Assembly: GCA_016841365.1 (NCBI GenBank)
Contig: JAENZI010000003.1
Coordinates: 205,423 to 269,422, forward strand
Source: Anaerolineaceae bacterium
GTDB taxonomy: Bacteria > Chloroflexota > Anaerolineae > Anaerolineales > Anaerolineaceae
DNA: 64,000 bases
Reading direction: 5' to 3'
This document shows, piece by piece, positions 12,020 through 22,722 of this stretch. The notes under the pieces are model-generated. The model made no database searches and was not told where the DNA came from. It saw only the letters and a list, made by a program, of their open reading frames with translations. Position numbers and translations under genes: made by a program. Position 1 is the first letter of the stretch; every line of letters starts with the position of its first letter.

Positions 12020-12457
12020 GTGTGGTATTAATTATATTTAACTAACAAAATAACAAGTCCACATGGCTATGCAACAATTTATGTCAAATTTTTATTACCC
12101 TACATAAAATCTTACCTTCTTGTTAACCGCTTGTTAAAAATAAACGAACCAAGCATGATAGAATACAACACTACAGGATTAAATAATTTCGATAATTTTG
12201 TGATAAACTGTAATTATCTCTTTAGCAAGTTTGGAGTAATGATCCTCCATGAAAGTCTTTAGCAAGAACTTCGTCTTTCAATATTCGTATTCCCATCCCA
12301 TTATTCATAATTAATTCTGCGCGTTAATTACCGGTTGTAGTCGCCGATATCTTGAGTCCTACCCTATTTAAATATTTCAAGGAGGTGCACCAGGAAAACC
12401 AATTAAACAACGAACCTTCAATTCAACCAAGAGTATATATTCAAGGAGAAGTATAAA
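12020..12457. other. Intergenic region upstream of the peptide ABC operon
   Basis: These AT-rich 438 bases separate two divergent operons. I see no gene. TTGTTA at 12131 and TAGAAT at 12159 are too far apart to be a convincing promoter pair. Near the end are two strong purine-rich ribosome-binding-like stretches, AAGGAGG at about 12381 and AAGGAG at about 12443. Only the second has an ATG at a useful distance (12458). Confidence 0.4.
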
Positions 12458-14119
12458 ATGAGAACGAAGAAGTTTTTTGTCTTACTTTCAGTGTTGGTTT
12501 TAGCCGGCTTATTGCTTTCAGCCTGCCAGCCAGCCGCTGAAACAGCAGAACCAGTTGAAGAAACTGAAGCACCGGTTGCCGAAGAAACTGAAGAACCTGA
12601 AGTTGAAGAACCTGAATTTCTGTGGACTCAGAAATTACGCCAGGCAGTCGCTGCTTCCATTGACCGAGAGGTCATTGTAGACCGTGTATTCGAGGGGCGC
12701 AACATTCCTGCCTACCACATGGTGCCTGAAGGCTATCCCTACGCCACACAGCCATTTTTCGACAAATACGGCACACGTGATCTCGACATGGCCATTCAGT
12801 TGCTGACCGAGGAAGGTTATACTGAGGATAATCCCTTCGTATTTGACCTTTGGTTCCCCCCCGAGCACTACGGCACCACCACGGCTGACGTGATGCAGGT
12901 CATCAAGGAACAGCTTGAAGAGACCGGCTTGATGGTCGTCAACCTTAACAGCATGAACTGGGCAGAATACGTCGACGGTTTTGTCGCCGGCGATCTCCCC
13001 TTCTTTATGTTAGGTTGGTTCCCGGACTTTGCTGACCCAGAGAACTGGCTTTCACCCTTTGCTTCCTGCCTGCAGTCACCCGATAACGGCGTGAACTACT
13101 GCAACGAGCAAATGGATTCACTTTTACAGTCAGCGGCAGCTTCTGCTGATCCTGCTGAACGAGAAGACCTCTATCAACAAATCGGTGAACTGTATGCTGA
13201 AGATGTTCCCACTATCCCATTATTCTGGGAGCCCGAATTTGTTTCCTATCGTGATGGTGTGGAAGGCGTGATCGTAGGTGCACCTTTCGAATTCAACTAT
13301 CATGTCCTCAGCTTCTCTGATGATGCTGAAACTGCCTCTGGCAGCACCGATACGATCATCATTGGCACCACAGATGAGGTCAACAGCCTTGACGCAAGCG
13401 ATGCTTATGCCACCCACGACTGGGAGATCATCAAGAACACAGGCGTCGCCCTGATGTCCTATGTTCCTGGCACGTCAGAACTGGTCCCTGGTGCTGCTGC
13501 AGCAGCCCCCGAGGTTAGCGAAGATGGCCTGACCTATACCTTCACCCTGCGTGATGACCTGAAATTTGCTGATGGCACTCCTGTCACCGCTCAGAATTAC
13601 GTCGATTCTTGGAACCGTCTCAACACACTCGAAGGCCAGGTTTCCGGCTTGGTCCAGCTCTATGTGGAAAGCGTTGAAGCGACCGATGACTTAACAGTTG
13701 TCTACAACTTGAAAGATTCCTTTGGTTTCTTCCCGGCACTGGCAGCCACAGCCCCCTTCGTGGTGACCAATCCTGCCACGTTCGTTGCGGATGAGATCGT
13801 TCAATTCCCAGAGTCTTTTGACGGCATTGGCGCCTACCGCTTGGTTTCCTTCACACCTGGTGAACAATTGGTTTTGGAAGCAAACCCCGAGTATTTCGGC
13901 GAAGCGCCACTCATTCCCAATGTAATTGTTCGCTACTTTGCCGATCCCACCACCATGTCAAACGCCATCGAATCCGGCGCAATTGACGTTGCCTGGCGGA
14001 CCTTAGGCCCAGTAGAAGCCATCCGTCTGCAGGATGTTGAAGGCGTGACGGTTGACAAAGTTGAAGCCCCAGCACTTCGCTACATGGTCTTCAACCACAC
14101 GTTCTCAGTTTCAGAGTAA
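12458..14119 (+). CDS. Peptide ABC transporter substrate-binding lipoprotein, circularly permuted
   Basis: This is a family 5 (DppA/OppA-type) solute-binding protein with its two halves in swapped order. Residues 1-23 are a lipoprotein signal (LLSAC, Cys23), followed by an acidic Glu/Pro linker. Residues 54-288 match the usual C-terminal half: QKLRQAVAASIDREVIVDRV, then GWFPDFADPENWLSPF, then the terminal VPTIPLFWEPE...VEGV. Residues 298-550 match the usual N-terminal half: DTIIIGTTDEVNSLDASDAY, then SEDGLTYTFTLRDDLKFADG, then the mid-protein YMVFNHTF. The reading frame is intact and all fold elements appear once. AAGGAGAAG precedes the ATG. It heads the peptide importer operon. Confidence 0.88.
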   Translation: MRTKKFFVLLSVLVLAGLLLSACQPAAETAEPVEETEAPVAEETEEPEVEEPEFLWTQKLRQAVAASIDREVIVDRVFEGRNIPAYHMVPEGYPYATQPFFDKYGTRDLDMAIQLLTEEGYTEDNPFVFDLWFPPEHYGTTTADVMQVIKEQLEETGLMVVNLNSMNWAEYVDGFVAGDLPFFMLGWFPDFADPENWLSPFASCLQSPDNGVNYCNEQMDSLLQSAAASADPAEREDLYQQIGELYAEDVPTIPLFWEPEFVSYRDGVEGVIVGAPFEFNYHVLSFSDDAETASGSTDTIIIGTTDEVNSLDASDAYATHDWEIIKNTGVALMSYVPGTSELVPGAAAAAPEVSEDGLTYTFTLRDDLKFADGTPVTAQNYVDSWNRLNTLEGQVSGLVQLYVESVEATDDLTVVYNLKDSFGFFPALAATAPFVVTNPATFVADEIVQFPESFDGIGAYRLVSFTPGEQLVLEANPEYFGEAPLIPNVIVRYFADPTTMSNAIESGAIDVAWRTLGPVEAIRLQDVEGVTVDKVEAPALRYMVFNHTFSVSE

Positions 14120-14210
14120 TCACAGCAACATCAGTCAAGTCAGTGAGGCGTTTACAAAGAAGAACACATGATAACCAGCTAATCTGAAGACTGATATCAA
14201 TAAGCACAAA

Positions 14211-14238
14211 TTGGGGGCGAGGGAAACCTTGCCCCCAA
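14211..14238 (+). terminator. Stem-loop after the binding-protein gene
   Basis: TTGGGGGC (14211-14218) pairs with GCCCCCAA (14231-14238), with an inner AGG/CCT extension, and no T-run follows. It lies between the binding protein and first permease and probably stabilises the upstream mRNA or partly stops transcription, giving more binding protein than permease. Confidence 0.55.
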
Positions 14239-14268
14239 CGCATACCTAATCATAGTGGGAGTGAAATT

Positions 14269-15291
14269 ATGTCTACTTCCTTGCGGAGATTTTTGATCAC
14301 TCGAATACTGCTGACAATTCCCATGGTGCTCATTTTGGTCACGATGATCTTTTTTGTCATGCGTGTCTTACCGGGCGATCCCATCCGTTCCCAACTTGGC
14401 CCGCGTGTGAGCGAAGAGCAAGCCGATGCCCTCCGCGAGCGCCTCGGGCTGAACCGCCCCCTTTACATCCAGTATTTTGACTTTTTATGGGATATGGTCA
14501 CTTTTAATTTCGGCAATGCCCTTACACAGGGCGAAAGGCCAATTAAAGATGAACTTGGCGAAAGACTGCCGGCAACCATCGAGTTGACCATTCCTGCCAT
14601 CAGCCTGACGGCTTTGATTGGCATATTCTCTGGCGCATTTGCCGCCAAAAATCGCAAAAAACCAATCGACTATATCATCCGGCTGATTAGCATTGCCATT
14701 TATTCGATCCCTATCTTCTTTATGGGACTTATCTTCCAGATACTTTTTTCTGTCAGGATCCCAATCTTCCCGCTTGCTGGGCGAATGGATACCCTGATGT
14801 TAACGAATTTCCGGTCAATAACAAATTTCTATGTCCTGGATGCCATCCTCACACAAAATTGGCCGGCACTGTGGTCAGCCATCATGCACCTGGCAATGCC
14901 ATCCATCACACTCGGGCTAGCCCTCTCAGGCGTTTTCGTCCGGCTCACCCGGGTGAACATGATTGAAATGCTCCAGTCGGACTTCATCACAGCAGGACGT
15001 GCAAGGGGTATCCCCGAGAATAAACTGACCTACAGACATGCCCTGCGCAACACATTTATCCCCATTCTGACGATGCTAGGGCTTCAATTTGCAATCCTTC
15101 TTGCAGGGGCTGTGTTGACCGAAACGACATTTTCCTGGCCTGGTGTTGGCCGTTATCTCGTAGAACGCATTCAGCTCCGCGACTATACCGCTGTTCAGGC
15201 AACCGTCGGCGTTTTTGCCTTATTTGTGGCCCTGATCAGTTTGTTGATGGATGTCCTGTATGCATTTATCGATCCACGAATTCGCTACTAA
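14269..15291 (+). CDS. dppB: Peptide ABC transporter permease, DppB type
   Basis: This is the first membrane subunit of a dipeptide/oligopeptide importer. It has the family start RRFLITRILLTIPMVLILVT (helix 1), the periplasmic motif LPGDPIRSQLGP, and five more helices. The cytoplasmic EAA-like loop, which contacts the ATPases, is in the segment DFITAGRARGIPENKLTYRH. The 340-residue length is normal. It is followed 30 bases later by the second permease. Whether the substrate is peptides or another compound such as a nickel chelate or sugar cannot be told from the permease. Confidence 0.93.
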   Translation: MSTSLRRFLITRILLTIPMVLILVTMIFFVMRVLPGDPIRSQLGPRVSEEQADALRERLGLNRPLYIQYFDFLWDMVTFNFGNALTQGERPIKDELGERLPATIELTIPAISLTALIGIFSGAFAAKNRKKPIDYIIRLISIAIYSIPIFFMGLIFQILFSVRIPIFPLAGRMDTLMLTNFRSITNFYVLDAILTQNWPALWSAIMHLAMPSITLGLALSGVFVRLTRVNMIEMLQSDFITAGRARGIPENKLTYRHALRNTFIPILTMLGLQFAILLAGAVLTETTFSWPGVGRYLVERIQLRDYTAVQATVGVFALFVALISLLMDVLYAFIDPRIRY

Positions 15292-15321
15292 GACACCATA
15301 CCGGATTTGGAGTTATACCCA

Positions 15322-16584
15322 ATGAAAAACATGAATATTGAAAACGAAAAACAAGAAACATCAGAGGAAACCCCGGAATGGCTTTTGGATTTGGATAAAG
15401 TCGGATTTGTACGCAGGCTCTTCATCGCACGCAAGTGGTATGGCGGCGATTGGTGGTTTGTGGCAATCAGTGCTGTACTGTTGATCTTCATCATCATCGT
15501 GGGTATTTTCCCCCAATGGTTTGCACCTTACGACCCCCGAGCTGAAGTCGGGCCTTCCCTGCTTGCACCAGGAGAACCACCTCCATCCTATCTATTGGTC
15601 ACGCCGGTTGAAAGCGGTGATATCCGCTTCAGAGATATTGCAGATAGAACAAATAATATTGGTTTTATCATCGGCAGCGCGGCCAGCCAGGCAATGCGTG
15701 AGGCTGTGGACGCCTTGAACGCCGAGGCACCTGAAGGCACCCGCTATCAACCCCGCCAGCAGCGCTATGAAACCCTTGAAGAAGGACTTGATGCTCTTGC
15801 CAATGGTGAAATTGATGGGTTTATCGCCTCTCCGGAAGAACTGGGCGAAACCCTGGCTGACTACGCTACTCTTCAGCAGATTTCGACTCTGCGTGAAGAA
15901 GGCGATAAGGGCTTTCTATTTGGGACCAACCAGATTGGTCAGGATGTATTGAGCAGGATCATTTGGGGCACACGCATCGCGCTGATTGTAGGTCTGAGTT
16001 CGGCAGTCGTTTCATTTGTGATCGGTGTGCCGCTGGGTTTGATCAGCGGTTTTGTGGGTGGACCTTTTGACCGCGTCCTCACGCTGTTGATGGACAGCCT
16101 GTATTCCTTCCCTGGTTTGATCCTGGCGATTACCATTGCAGCGGTTTTAGGCGCAGGTATCGGAAATATTATCGTCTCGATTGCTGTGTTATATATCCCA
16201 ACCTACTACCGCATTGTCAGGGGTCAGACGCTGCAGGTTAAAAAAGAGCTGTATGTTGAAGCGGCTCGCAGTCTGGGGACCAAATCGAGAAAGATTTTGA
16301 CAAAGTACATCTTCCCGAACGTGATCCCATCTGTTGTGATCATCTTCTCAGTTAATGTAGGCGATGCCATCCTGACTGAAGCCGGGTTGAGCTTCCTCGG
16401 CTTTGGTTTACCGCCAGATACCCCCGATTGGGGCATTGACCTGGCACGCGGCCAGGATTATGTCCGCCGGGCGTGGTGGCTGATCACCTATCCTGGTTTG
16501 ATGGTGACATTGGTGACCCTCTCGTTCAGTATGCTTGGCGAGAGTTTATCTGAAATTCTAAACCCGCGTCTCACGGAGCGCTAA
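15322..16584 (+). CDS. dppC: Peptide ABC transporter permease, DppC type, with a large external insertion
   Basis: The second membrane subunit pairs with DppB. After helix 1 (residues about 45-65) the family normally reaches the FGTDxxGRDVLSR motif within a few dozen residues. Here FGTNQIGQDVLSR comes only near residue 200. Between them lies an extra segment of about 105 residues, with the pattern FIIGSAASQAMREAVDALN and LEEGLDALANGEIDGFIAS, which looks like part of a small binding domain facing outward. The remaining helices and the EAA loop (LYVEAARSLGTKSRKIL) are ordinary. The ATG at 15322 has GGAG nine bases upstream, so it is preferred over the TTG at 15307. Confidence 0.9.
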   Translation: MKNMNIENEKQETSEETPEWLLDLDKVGFVRRLFIARKWYGGDWWFVAISAVLLIFIIIVGIFPQWFAPYDPRAEVGPSLLAPGEPPPSYLLVTPVESGDIRFRDIADRTNNIGFIIGSAASQAMREAVDALNAEAPEGTRYQPRQQRYETLEEGLDALANGEIDGFIASPEELGETLADYATLQQISTLREEGDKGFLFGTNQIGQDVLSRIIWGTRIALIVGLSSAVVSFVIGVPLGLISGFVGGPFDRVLTLLMDSLYSFPGLILAITIAAVLGAGIGNIIVSIAVLYIPTYYRIVRGQTLQVKKELYVEAARSLGTKSRKILTKYIFPNVIPSVVIIFSVNVGDAILTEAGLSFLGFGLPPDTPDWGIDLARGQDYVRRAWWLITYPGLMVTLVTLSFSMLGESLSEILNPRLTER

Positions 16585-16585
16585 A

Positions 16586-17602
16586 ATGACGACAAACAAA
16601 GAAATATTAATGGAAATACGTGATCTCTCTGTCGAATATACAACCAGGCTTGGGCAGGTCAGCGCTGTGGACAAGATCTCCTTTGATATCTACAAAGGTG
16701 AAATTCTCGGTCTGGTTGGCGAATCCGGTTGCGGAAAGAGCACAATGGGCAAAGCGCTGATGCGCATGATCCAGCCGCCAGGTAAGATCACTGGCGGTCA
16801 GATCATTTTCGATGGTGAAGATATCATGACCTACGACGATGATCAGATGCGGGATTTTCGGGGACGCAGGGTGAGCATGATCTTCCAGGATCCCATGACA
16901 TCCCTCAACCCCGTCCAGCGCGTGGATGAACATGTCATCGAGGCGATCCAGGTTCACGAACCTGAAACAAAAACCGAAACTGCTCTGAAAAGAGCAGAAA
17001 AACTGATCCAGAAGCTGGGCATCCGCAAGAACCGCATGAACAGCTACCCCCACCAGCTCTCAGGCGGCATGCGCCAAAGGGTCATGGTCGGCTTGGGATT
17101 GGTTCTCAACGCCGATCTGATCGTCGCGGACGAGGCAACAACCTCCTTGGACGTGATCGTTGAAGCAAAATTGGCCGATCAACTCCGCCAAATTCGTGAG
17201 GATTTTGATGTTTCTCTGCTGGTCATCACTCACAATATCGCTTTAGTCGCCGAATTATCCGACCGGGTCGCTGTGATGTATGCAGGGCATGTCGTTGAAA
17301 TTGCTGATGTCGAACCGATTTTTGACAATCCACTCCATCCCTACACCAAAGGCCTGCTGGACTCGATCCCGAATATTAAGCTGGATGAGAAGGAAGTGCT
17401 GTATAAAATGCCCGGTGAGCCACCCAACCTGACCCATCCCCCTTCAGGTTGCCGGTTTCACCCACGCTGTCCATTCGCCATGCCGATCTGCTCAAAATAT
17501 GAGCCAGACTTCAAAGAGGTAACACCCGGAAGACAGGTCAAATGCTGGCTGTACATCGACCATCCCGAAAAAGAACAAGCAACCATCGAGGTGCAAGCAT
17601 GA
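16586..17602 (+). CDS. dppD: Peptide ABC transporter ATP-binding protein, DppD type
   Basis: One of the two ATPases energising the importer, acting on the cytoplasmic side. Walker A is GESGCGKST near residue 46, the signature is LSGGMRQRVMVGLGL near 158, and Walker B is LIVADEATTSLDV near 177. The C-terminal oligopeptide-transporter extension carries the cysteine cluster [19 protein letters not shown], which in this family often binds an iron-sulfur cluster. It begins one base after the stop of dppC and overlaps the next ATPase gene by four bases, so translation is coupled. Confidence 0.95.
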   Translation: MTTNKEILMEIRDLSVEYTTRLGQVSAVDKISFDIYKGEILGLVGESGCGKSTMGKALMRMIQPPGKITGGQIIFDGEDIMTYDDDQMRDFRGRRVSMIFQDPMTSLNPVQRVDEHVIEAIQVHEPETKTETALKRAEKLIQKLGIRKNRMNSYPHQLSGGMRQRVMVGLGLVLNADLIVADEATTSLDVIVEAKLADQLRQIREDFDVSLLVITHNIALVAELSDRVAVMYAGHVVEIADVEPIFDNPLHPYTKGLLDSIPNIKLDEKEVLYKMPGEPPNLTHPPSGCRFHPRCPFAMPICSKYEPDFKEVTPGRQVKCWLYIDHPEKEQATIEVQA

Positions 17603-18627
17603 CAATTCCAAGCGAAAACCAGAACAACGAGGATTACCTGGTGCAGGTGACCAACTTAAAGAAGTGGTTCCCCGTTCAGACCAGCTTCATAGATCAATTG
17701 TTTGCAGAAGAACGAGAGTTCGTCAGGGCGGTTGATGGTGTAACCTTCAACATCAAACGCGGTGAGGTGCTCGGGTTAGCCGGCGAAAGTGGCAGCGGCA
17801 AAACGACCATCGGTCGGGTGACGATCGGGCTTGATGAAAAAACCGATGGTGAGGTAATTTTCGACGGCATCAACCTTTCAACACTTTCACAAGAACAACT
17901 GCGTAAAATGCGCCGCCGGATGCAAGTTATCTTTCAAGATCCTTTAGCTTCGCTTAACCCCCGCATGTCTTTGGGAGATGCGATCAAACAGGGTTTGGAG
18001 ATCCACTATCCTGAAACCAAAGATCAGCACCGCGATATTGTTCTGGAAATGATGGAAGAGGTGGGTTTAAGCCCGGCAAAATTCTTCTACAACAAATTCC
18101 CCCATCAAATCTCCGGCGGGCAGCGACAGAGGGTTGTGATCGCCAGGGCACTCGTAACCAAGCCTGACCTTGTGCTGGCAGATGAACCTATCGCCATGGC
18201 AGATGTCAGCGTAAGAGCCTTGCTGCTGGATCTGATGGTAAAGCTGAAGAATGACTATAACCTGACTTACCTGTTCATCACGCACGACCTGGCAACCGCC
18301 AAGTATATTTGCGACCGCATCGCGATTTTGTATCTCGGCAAAATTGTTGAGATCAGCGATTTACGTGAGGTTTATGCCCACCCGCTGCACCCCTACACCA
18401 TTGCACTCCTGGCAGCCGTGCCCGTACCCAACCCGCACGAACGGCGCGAAGAACCCATGCCCAAAGGTGAAATCCCCAACCCGATCCATCCACCCTCGGG
18501 CTGCCGCTTCCATCCGCGCTGCCCTTATGCCCAGGCTGTTTGCTCGGAAAAAGAACCAGAACTGCGAGAATTGCGCCCAGATCATCTCGTCGCCTGCCAT
18601 TTTGCGGAGCAATTCTTAGACTCCTGA
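17599..18627 (+). CDS. dppF: Peptide ABC transporter ATP-binding protein, DppF type
   Basis: The second ATPase of the importer. Walker A is GESGSGKTT, the signature is [15 protein letters not shown], and Walker B is [13 protein letters not shown], where Ile-Ala-Met replaces the more usual Val-Ser-Met/Leu. The C-terminus repeats the cysteine motif [16 protein letters not shown]. The ATG at 17599 overlaps the TGA of dppD (ATGA) and has GAGGTG just before it. It is the last gene of the operon and is followed by a terminator. Confidence 0.95.
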
Positions 18628-20040: not shown

Positions 20041-21201
20041 TTATTTGTTTTCTGATTTCTTTATCTTATTCAGTTCATCACTAACTTCAGTCAATGTAAA
20101 CAGTTCATCCATCTTCTGTGCTGCCTCTTCTTGCATCGAAGGTAAAACATGAGAGTAAGTATTCAAGGTAAGACTGATGTCAGAATGTCCCAAACGCTCC
20201 TGAACAACTTTTGGATTGATCTCTTGCTGAAGCATAAGCGTTGCAGCACTATGCCTAAGGTCATGAAATCGTAGGTCTGGCAATCCTGCCATTTCTAAAC
20301 ACCTTTTATAAGCTTTCAATACATTTGCGCAATCCTGCGGTGTTCCAATGGGTGTAGGAAAAATTAAATCATTTTCCTGCCACTTATCTCCTGCAAGAAG
20401 CCGCTCTTTATATTGCTTTTCTCTGTGCTCCCGTAATATATCTACGGTTTTTTCACCTAGACTAACCACTCTTCTACCAGAAGCAGATTTGGGCTCGCAA
20501 AAAACCAGTCCCTCACCTTTTCTGCGCTGGACCTGTCTTTGTATTTGCATTCTTCCAGTTTGCCAATCAAGATCTGACCATTTCAAACCCAATATCTCAC
20601 CTTGGCGCAATCCGGTTGTAACCGCAATCCGTAACAGTACACGCATACGTGTTCCTTCTGCAGCCTGGAGTAACTGACGGACTTGATAGTCATCCAATGT
20701 TTTCATCTCTTTACGCGGCACTTTTGGCAATGTCGCTGCATCTGAGACATTTCTGACAACCAGTCCGAGCTTTAGGGCATGGTTTAAGGCTCTATGAAGC
20801 ACCGAATGAATTATCCGTGTCGTTCTAGGACTTATTCCTTCTTCCAATTTCCTTGTGTAAAGGCTTTGAACATGATTTGGCTTCAAATCTCGCAACAAAA
20901 TCTCTCCAAGATGAGGATTGATATGTTGATGCACTATTTGAGCATATTGATCACCAGTATTGGGTCGAACTGAGGTTCTAGCTACAACCAGCCAATCATC
21001 CAGAAATTTCGAGAGTGGCACCCTAGCCCCCAAAATGTTTAGCCCTTGTCGTCTTTGTTCAACCTTTTTATGGCGCCAATCATTTGCCTCTTTTTGTGTA
21101 TCAAAATATTTTATTTCCCGATTTTTCCCAGAACCCACCTGCCCTACCCAGCGCTTACCCCTCTTATAAACACTACCTTCACCAGCAGCTCTCTTACCCA
21201 T
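20041..21201 (-). CDS. int: Tyrosine recombinase (integrase) of the element
   Basis: The enzyme inserts and excises the element at the tRNA-Arg site. Residues 7-50 form an AP2-like arm-binding domain (GEGSVYKRGKRWVGQV), residues 60-150 the core-binding SAM-like domain, and the rest the catalytic domain. The catalytic residues are visible: Arg199 in TTGLRQGE, a Lys near 238, His313 and Arg316 in HDLRHSAA, His339 in LGHSD and Tyr349 in NTYSHVLP. The 386-residue length is normal. AAAGGAG lies seven bases before the ATG. It is transcribed toward the tRNA gene, the usual place for a tRNA-targeting integrase. All key residues are present, so it is probably active. Confidence 0.96.
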   Translation of the reverse strand: MGKRAAGEGSVYKRGKRWVGQVGSGKNREIKYFDTQKEANDWRHKKVEQRRQGLNILGARVPLSKFLDDWLVVARTSVRPNTGDQYAQIVHQHINPHLGEILLRDLKPNHVQSLYTRKLEEGISPRTTRIIHSVLHRALNHALKLGLVVRNVSDAATLPKVPRKEMKTLDDYQVRQLLQAAEGTRMRVLLRIAVTTGLRQGEILGLKWSDLDWQTGRMQIQRQVQRRKGEGLVFCEPKSASGRRVVSLGEKTVDILREHREKQYKERLLAGDKWQENDLIFPTPIGTPQDCANVLKAYKRCLEMAGLPDLRFHDLRHSAATLMLQQEINPKVVQERLGHSDISLTLNTYSHVLPSMQEEAAQKMDELFTLTEVSDELNKIKKSENK

Positions 21202-21282: not shown

Positions 21283-22668
21283 CTACACATCAAGATTGTC
21301 GAAGTCTTCATCGTACCTATGTGTTTTTCCAGAAGGAATCTTTTTGATTTTTCCATCTAATATAAGCTCTTCAAGGATTACATCAACAGTTGCTGCTTTG
21401 AAATGAGTCAATTGCTGAATTTCCCGACTTGTCAAGCCACCTCTTGTTCTTATTAAGTCATGTATTCGCTCTAAAGGATCCGGCTTAAAAGAACACATAG
21501 CTGAATTGCTGTTTGGCAAAGTTTTGTAGTATAAACGATGCAAATTTTCTCGCCATTCCTCAGCGATGTTCTGGCCAAAACCCCAATGGGTTAATGTCAC
21601 TTCACTATCATTATTTAAACTAGCTATTAACACAGCTATACGTAAGGCCATATCAGGATATCGGATGTAGTTACCTGCAAGATCTAATTCTTTAGAGTTT
21701 TGAATCTGATCTTTCATATCCCTTCTGTATGCATAATAAGCACATTTGACATCACCAGTAATGTTATACAATTGACCTTTGGCGGGTATTACCTTAAATT
21801 CTGGTAATAAATGAATTTGCGGAACACCTAGTCGTTCATGCCAATCTCGGATTTTTTTAACAAGAGCCTTCGGAACTTTCATCTCACCATCTGGAAATTC
21901 TTTATCTCTCCTAAAATCATCTGGTGGACAAATAAAAGCAATCCTGGAAAGAAAACCATCTGTCCATATTTTAGATCCCTTCATTGCATGGGGTGAGAGG
22001 TCCTTTGGGGTCATTCCCCCCAACAAGACTAAGTAAGGATATTGGATTACCTCATCATCCCTAACAATCGTGGAATTACTTAACTCTGGTCTGTTATCGT
22101 ATAATTTTTTTAGAAGTTCACAAAAACTAGCGTTATAATGAGATTTTTGCATCATTTCCCGAATAAGACTGCCAAACTCATCAAAAATCCAACCCCGTTG
22201 TCCAATGAATGCTTGCTTTTTTTGGATAGAATTGATTATCATCTTCTTCTCATCGGCATCTTTATTGTCAAAGTCTTGAGGGATCTGAATGCACATTGAA
22301 GAAAACAACTTTTGAGCTGTAACAGTATCGGAATGTAACAAAAAGTCTAAACCTGACTCTTTGATAATAGCTCGAACCAATTTCATCACTGTCGTTTTTG
22401 CTGACATACCAGAAGTATCCACTAAAAGAATATACATTGATGGAGCTTGACGGCTACCAAATAGATATTCAACTCGCCTGGCTGATATAATCGATACTGT
22501 TGCAAGTGCACAAGGTAGATAATATCCTTCATATGACTCTGGACTCCATAATCTAAATAATCCAACAATATCACTTAGTAAAGGACAGACATCTTCCACT
22601 TTAATATCTGGAAATCTCAGATTGAGGGGTAATTCATTAAACTCAGGAACTTGAGAATTCATAATCAT
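21283..22668 (-). CDS. DUF3987-like replication ATPase
   Basis: The protein resembles the DUF3987 group of primase-helicase-associated ATPases in plasmids and integrative elements. It has a Walker-A-like loop, DTSGMSAKTT near residue 83, in which the expected GKT is AKT. A Walker-B-like GWIFDEFGS follows, then the conserved LLGGMTPKDL and GFLSRIAFICPP segments. The C-terminus (residues about 400-460) looks like a winged helix (HDLIRTRGGLTSREIQQLTH). It probably helps replicate the excised element; this is inference. The ATG at 22668 has AAAGG just upstream; a TTG at 22695 would extend it by nine residues. A hairpin lies immediately upstream. Confidence 0.72.
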   Translation of the reverse strand: MIMNSQVPEFNELPLNLRFPDIKVEDVCPLLSDIVGLFRLWSPESYEGYYLPCALATVSIISARRVEYLFGSRQAPSMYILLVDTSGMSAKTTVMKLVRAIIKESGLDFLLHSDTVTAQKLFSSMCIQIPQDFDNKDADEKKMIINSIQKKQAFIGQRGWIFDEFGSLIREMMQKSHYNASFCELLKKLYDNRPELSNSTIVRDDEVIQYPYLVLLGGMTPKDLSPHAMKGSKIWTDGFLSRIAFICPPDDFRRDKEFPDGEMKVPKALVKKIRDWHERLGVPQIHLLPEFKVIPAKGQLYNITGDVKCAYYAYRRDMKDQIQNSKELDLAGNYIRYPDMALRIAVLIASLNNDSEVTLTHWGFGQNIAEEWRENLHRLYYKTLPNSNSAMCSFKPDPLERIHDLIRTRGGLTSREIQQLTHFKAATVDVILEELILDGKIKKIPSGKTHRYDEDFDNLDV

Positions 22669-22689
22669 TAAGCCTTTCTCTAATTTTAA

Positions 22690-22722
22690 GATCAAGTCTT
22701 CATTGAACGTGAAGACTTGATC
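22690..22722 (-). terminator. Strong inverted repeat just upstream of the DUF3987-like gene
   Basis: GATCAAGTCTTCA and TGAAGACTTGATC form a perfect 13-bp stem around seven bases. The minus strand continues TTAAAATTA and then the AAAGG ribosome binding site. It may be a weak terminator for the upstream gene, an attenuator, or a protein-binding palindrome. Confidence 0.6.

Follow-up and report, generated by a model that had tools for sequence, protein, structure and literature searches.

The window analysed here, a stretch of 64,000 nt from the genome of an Anaerolineaceae bacterium, contains an intact operon of five genes for a peptide-type ABC importer: a substrate-binding protein (SBP) gene followed by two permease and two ATPase genes. 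The SBP raises the question of whether a binding protein can have its two halves exchanged and still serve its transporter and, if so, how, and how often, such an order arises. The first-pass annotation, made from the letters alone, had proposed that the protein is a natural circular permutation of the SBP_bac_5 family. The parts of the gene are as follows; the domain names given for both halves are inferred from the domain limits of EppA.

12443–12449, + strand: Shine-Dalgarno-like AAGGAGA, 5′ of the ATG (read in the sequence)
12458–14119, + strand: gene for the permuted SBP_bac_5 lipoprotein, 553 aa (ORF, Pfam and PDB matches, rotation test)
12458–12526, + strand: signal peptide and lipobox LSAC, residues 1–23 (by eye, from the translation and the homologue alignment rows reaching there)
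12527–12619, + strand: acidic low-complexity linker, residues 24–54 (translation; model pLDDT below 50 at 22–49)
12620–13321, + strand: original C-half, residues 55–288, covering domain III, hinge strand 2 and the end of domain II (NCBIfam, PDB, rotation)
13211–13252, + strand: putative hinge strand 2, model strand 252–265 (model secondary structure read against EppA)
13316–13348, + strand: junction of the old C- and N-termini, residues 287–297, SDDAETASGST (translation, alignment)
13349–14104, + strand: original N-half, residues 298–549, covering domain I and the start of domain II (Pfam, PDB, model comparison)
14045–14092, + strand: putative hinge strand 1, model strand 530–545, now C-terminal (model and EppA)

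The translated frame is open over 553 codons, from the ATG at 12458 to the stop ending at 14119, as had been claimed. The protein begins MRTKKFFVLLSVLVLAGLLLSAC, in which a signal peptide and the lipobox LSAC can be read by eye, as in SBP_bac_5 lipoproteins, and the acidic linker comes next; export is thus predicted. The profile PF00496 matched the protein in two stretches (E = 2.5e-73; 247.8 bits against a gathering score of 32.4). The better of these paired residues 341–548 with profile positions 1–209 of 368, the start of the profile falling in the second half of the protein. The best stretches found with the NCBIfam models for OppA (residues 58–257 with positions 313–510), DppA (57–274 with 306–522) and NikA (347–515 with 52–223) revealed the same exchange, with scores far under the cut-offs of all three models. 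Against the sequence of the OppA structure 1b05, residues 59–258 paired with 288–485, and 301–522 with 16–253. The canonical N-half to C-half order in one PF00496 stretch, seen in the normal-order relative L061 (profile positions 1–366), was absent from the window protein, which is therefore filed as a permuted derivative and not as a canonical member.

Rotation of the sequence to the canonical order (residues 289–553 followed by 55–288) raised the Smith-Waterman score against all 33 normal-order relatives compared, the median going from 513 to 961; these relatives were those, out of 54 normal-order proteins, for whose C-piece the best match was the window protein or L061. Homology over the whole length under rotation rules out a coincidence of motifs. 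The ORF at 12458–14119 is a natural circular permutation, with the C-half before the N-half, a claim upheld by the rotation, by homologues of the same order in many genomes and by the structural match to OppA and DppA described below. The limits first given for the halves (54–288 and 298–550) were right to within a few residues, and the short linker said to join the old termini proved to be the ∼11 residues SDDAETASGST.

An AlphaFold2 model of the protein, built on an alignment whose 27 rows include four fragments of normal-order proteins, had a pLDDT of 80.9 and a pTM of 0.77; at the junction (residues 281–300) the pLDDT was 95–96. A sequential structure aligner placed model residues 283–544 on OppA 1–276 (1ola; Z 22.8) and 298–542 on DppA 1–266 (1dpp; Z 22.1). 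Among the best 50 structure matches listed (Z 21.6–23.5), no residue before model position 268 was aligned. As a control, the model of the normal-order L061, of moderate quality (pLDDT 68.3), was aligned over its whole length (40–552 on DppA 1–497, Z 27.7; Z 25.8–28.6 among the best 50 listed). The fold of the N-half is thus matched to solved structures, while the C-half, which the sequential aligner did not place, is confirmed by sequence and not by a structural match of its own. An alignment of the two halves in the standard order, which the first-pass annotation had named as contrary evidence, was not obtained; it is the second half that matches the first half of OppA and DppA. Searched with the junction fragment, the PDB gave no match whose best stretch spans the junction among the best 60 of 76 matching sequences. 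That the aligners used here caught only half of such a protein is a warning for permutation-blind pipelines in both annotation and structure analysis.

The cut lies between a segment ending in RYMVFNHT and a helix starting with LRQA, that is, between secondary-structure elements of the predicted model. For the cluster C protein EppA, the published description (PMC7312458) assigns the hinge to two antiparallel strands, 295–302 and 531–538, with domain III starting right after the first. Both strands are predicted in the model, where they would correspond to 530–545, at the C-terminus, and 252–265, respectively. The cut would then fall where hinge strand 1 ends and the chain is about to pass into the C-lobe, leaving each lobe contiguous and a single covalent crossover. 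Judged from the model, the lobes would be covalently linked by hinge strand 2 alone, alongside which strand 1, now C-terminal, would pair. The protein would still fold as a cluster C Venus flytrap, and its lipid anchor, going by the position of the lipobox, would sit on the C-lobe at the hinge instead of on the N-lobe.

The permuted order is not confined to the window. Among 147 genomes of the family, a set that includes the window's own, 28 matched at E 1e-35 or better: 24 are permuted by coordinates, five of these being fragmentary or split (G001, G016, G047, G066, G079), and four (G020, G073, G194, G197) have the normal order. In a sample of 396 genomes of the class, 35 matched: 11 in the permuted order of the window (counting the divergent G484) and one of a different permuted type (G265); of the remaining 23, 21 had both halves in the normal order and two (G210, G531) a single piece. 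The set used for sequence comparison contained 29 permuted and 24 normal proteins, after removal of duplicates and of proteins with too short a half match. Named carriers include Pelolinea submarina (a complete genome), Longilinea arvoryzae, Anaerolinea thermolimosa and Ornatilinea apprima, and the loci from isolates or complete chromosomes are L049, L051, L058 and L041. The search for homologues of the same order that had been asked for thus found them in many genomes, isolates and one complete genome among them. Purifying selection on the permuted protein is strong: dN/dS, computed for the mature part, was 0.033–0.056 in all five pairs compared, at a dS of 1.5–2.4, near saturation. Many carriers are metagenome assemblies, in which misassembly or wrong binning might have produced the order. 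The same order in isolates and in one complete genome rules out an assembly rearrangement; together with the 29 distinct sequences sharing that order and the selection on the gene, this makes the chance of any such artefact negligible.

The remaining genes of the operon, and a predicted structure ahead of them, are these.

14211–14238, + strand: stem-loop of 12 bp between the binding-protein gene and dppB (fold of 14120–14268, z −4.96)
14269–15291, + strand: DppB-like permease (PF00528, PF19300)
15307–16584, + strand: DppC-like permease with an extra stretch (PF00528, alignment)
16586–17602, + strand: DppD-like ATPase (PF00005, PF08352)
17542–18627, + strand: DppF-like ATPase (PF00005, PF08352)

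Several homologues of DppC begin at the position of an ATG at 15322, and homologue starts place the true start of DppF probably further in. Permuted genes head an SBP-B-C-D-F operon wherever the stretch fetched was long enough, among the loci listed, and in other members of the class the same operon begins with a normal-order orthologue. The orthologues L061 and L104–L114 are 37–48% identical to the window protein per half and differ from it in their canonical order and, in some cases (L108, L111), in an N-terminal SBP_bac_3 domain. An extra ∼120 residues in DppC (15559–15920), between the first membrane segment and the permease domain, occur in permuted and normal-order operons alike. As the six normal-order operons aligned all have a stretch like that of the window (it is shorter in L111 and L114), it is disfavoured as the cause of the permutation. 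By eye it somewhat resembles a lobe of an amino-acid binding protein; Pfam gave no support for an SBP_bac_3 piece, the sole match being ABC2_membrane_3, under its cut-off. Three further features were observed. The predicted stem-loop at 14211–14238 is strong and would suit unequal expression of the binding protein and the permeases. An integrase-like ORF (20041–21201) and a neighbouring unassigned ORF of 470 aa (21283–22695) lie just downstream of the operon; inspection of the ORF list by eye suggests that a mobile element may end here. Large insertions were found in the DppB-like permeases of L111 (5731–8067) and L109 (6356–7813), one matching a regulator-propeller repeat and one a bacterial SH3 domain just under the cut-off.

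The arrangement suggests that the substrate-binding lipoprotein of a Dpp/Opp-type importer was permuted without leaving its operon, in some ancestor belonging to the class. The likely route would be a tandem duplication after which the copies were joined and the first N-half and last C-half were trimmed away, while the signal peptide and linker stayed. The resulting protein would take up a probably peptide-like substrate and hand it to the DppBCDF-like translocator. We give this explanation as a whole, including the flytrap fold and the anchor on the C-lobe, a probability of roughly 0.8. Trees built separately for each half, quick ones of 35 rows that included 11 of the 29 permuted proteins, agreed in their placement, both halves joining one larger clade (SH-aLRT 95 and 99), so that one parental lineage most likely supplied both. 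That both halves had come from different binding proteins could be suspected from their unequal identities to relatives (for example, 48% for the N-half and 37% for the C-half of L104); such a chimera is very unlikely, since each half falls with the f60 and L104/L107 groups and the rotated alignment is continuous. Of the two routes first suggested, duplication with trimming therefore fits the co-placement of the halves better than a fusion of two proteins does, although no duplication intermediate of the window protein was found. Many normal-order relatives have KPFDDP or a similar sequence in the loop where the cut lies, and the divergent permuted protein L096 retains PFID before VRQA. Tandem family-5 genes do occur elsewhere, two in one other locus and three in a row in Phyllobacterium, which is no proof of the route. 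The latter, ahead of oppB on a plasmid (L182, 1–4887), are the kind of raw material from which a permutation by duplication could be made.

How often this has happened was examined across the phylum. A search of 400 genomes gave single matches across the junction in distant proteins, 27–33% identical to that of the window. The order of three pieces (N1, N2 and C) was then read in 111 distinct proteins, all three pieces being required and proteins dropped if one was missing or scored below 35 bits: 54 had the normal order, 37 the order C-N1-N2 and 20 the order N2-C-N1. Group A, that of the window, comprises 32 of the 37 C-N1-N2 proteins. The other five (group B; G060, G075, G558, G485 and G269, with a fragment in G222) are cut at the same place in the hinge and belong to another subfamily, whose proteins are longer. 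Compared with its normal-order relative L174, a group B protein scored 2140 rotated and 1191 unrotated, a 1.8-fold difference over ∼620 aligned columns. With a group B query, 27 of 150 class genomes matched, and the match ran across the junction in just two of them, G269 and G222 (the fragment), which makes group B rare among its relatives. Group C, a widespread subfamily, is cut inside the N-lobe, at about position 61 of PF00496, and was present in 26 of the 34 matching genomes (201 of the phylum searched), the other eight matching only as a normal-order protein would. In family f40 an SBP_bac_3 domain precedes the group C protein in all three genomes; fusions of SBP_bac_3 with a family-5 protein (L095, L116, L117, L108, L111) include both canonical and permuted orders of the latter.

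A tree of 87 proteins, from which near-duplicates of groups A and C were left out and in which long branches are present, required six changes of order, at least five of them forced by the starred branches for the normal label: one in group C, which forms one clade (100/100), two in group A and two to three in group B. Each of the groups A, B and C shares a starred branch with normal-order proteins, and the three branches are different. Three events are therefore firm if reversal is excluded, and any further ones hinge on L096 and on how the members of group B are placed. A single origin of all hinge-cut forms was rejected, as A and B occupy separate starred branches with normal-order proteins around each.

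Within group A, the second change depends on L096, the divergent copy of G484. The hinge cut of this group may have arisen once, with L096 misplaced by long branches or not a simple permutation at all. L096 is indeed a long branch, and its contig begins inside the linker, so that the lipobox is out of view and an upstream N-half is possible; a test on the binding protein alone (53 rows) did not reject one clade (p-AU 0.0785). This was countered by the binding protein taken together with its partners B, C and D, for which one clade was rejected (p-AU 0.00245; 21 rows, 27 of the 53 loci having all three partners and six near-duplicates being dropped), and by the partner tree, which put L096 with normal-order operons (98/98). 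A single origin of group A is accordingly a tentative reading, to which we lend somewhat less than even credence.

Outside Chloroflexota, plasmid records were searched with the junction fragment. Of 1819 matching records, two covered 80% of the query in one place: the Phyllobacterium match, which spans two neighbouring genes and not one protein, and a protein of Subdoligranulum variabile (Bacillota). The latter ORF (L181, 3906–5696), a single record from a stretch without annotation, codes for an OppA-like lipoprotein of order N2-C-N1, cut inside the N-lobe. PF00496 matched it in two stretches, the best pairing residues 45–367 with positions 54–367, and Bacillus subtilis OppA paired residues 138–522 with 54–441 and 16–132 with 442–558. 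Low-complexity stretches rich in Ser and Ala follow the lipobox and stand at the C-terminus of this protein from a gut bacterium. Queried with the group C type L132, one of 1879 records covered 80% of the query, and none did among the 12 rows listed. With L181 itself, four of 333 did: L181 and H29–H31, two of which are pieced together from two parts and one of which lies under two annotated genes.

Taken together, these data make it likely that family-5 (cluster C) lipoproteins have repeatedly left the canonical topology, with at least three and perhaps six permutations in Chloroflexota, provided that the order never reverts, plus one in a Bacillota record, and that they form a new permuted subclass of cluster C. 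The same reading, at the same strength, includes two favoured cut sites: one at the hinge end of the C-lobe, used by two or more subfamilies, the other in a single loop of the N-lobe.

To our knowledge, circular permutations conserved in nature are uncommon. The window protein shares with OppA, DppA, NikA and EppA the PF00496 homology of both halves, the signal peptide and lipobox, the Dpp-type operon and both predicted hinge strands. It differs from them in that the C-half comes first, with new termini at the hinge, and would differ in having one covalent crossover instead of two and its anchor on the other lobe. The nearest precedent is TpMglB-2 (Tp0684) of Treponema pallidum, described as a naturally permuted, tethered SBP of 'Type Ic / Cluster Bc' with homologues of the same topology in other bacteria, its authors suggesting that this topology may suit anchoring (PMC4990184). 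TpMglB-2 has the sugar-binding fold of cluster B, and there the permutation raises the number of crossovers from three to four and changes the strand order of the N-lobe; the window protein belongs to cluster C, and its crossovers would go from two to one. Of the marks of Type Ic / Cluster Bc, the permutation of an SBP is present and the cluster B (MglB-like) fold absent, the homology being of the PF00496/OppA type. A permuted cluster C SBP was not found among the papers listed from the open-access literature, which leaves subscription papers and preprints mostly outside, and TpMglB-2 was the sole natural permuted SBP recognised there. Permutation of an SBP being already known from cluster B, its recurrence in cluster C is the most surprising part of these results.

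What the new order might do for import is suggested by Escherichia coli DppABCDF, where a scoop motif of DppB enters the cleft between both lobes of the binding protein (PMC12136057). Delivery thus depends on where the lobes lie near the membrane and, by analogy, an anchor relocated to the C-lobe at the hinge, with one hinge strand set free, could alter docking or closing. Tethering alone is no mark of the permuted proteins, as their normal-order relatives are mostly lipoproteins too: by a loose pattern, a lipobox-like motif was found in 39 of 54 normal-order proteins and, for the three permuted groups, in 26 of 32, 5 of 5 and 17 of 20, which speaks against a reading driven by the anchor. These similar frequencies would suit a permutation that is functionally neutral, a by-product of tandem family-5 duplication fixed by drift, as a flytrap whose termini are joined would fold and work with its chain opened at any of several points. 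The position of the cut between secondary-structure elements, the occurrence of tandem family-5 copies and the persistence of close normal-order proteins agree with this. Two observations hint at an advantage without proving one, namely the same hinge cut in two subfamilies, and the finding that the permuted gene is the lone close family member in the window genome, where the match that follows it has 26% identity. We regard neutrality as having close to, but not quite, an even chance.

Whether neutral or advantageous, permuted and canonical orthologues in the same operon context provide matched pairs with which the role of the anchor position and of the number of hinge strands can be asked. 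If the reading given here is true, the anchor and the hinge connectivity of these proteins can be moved by evolution, which would make this family a natural experiment on the design of tethering and hinge in ABC import.
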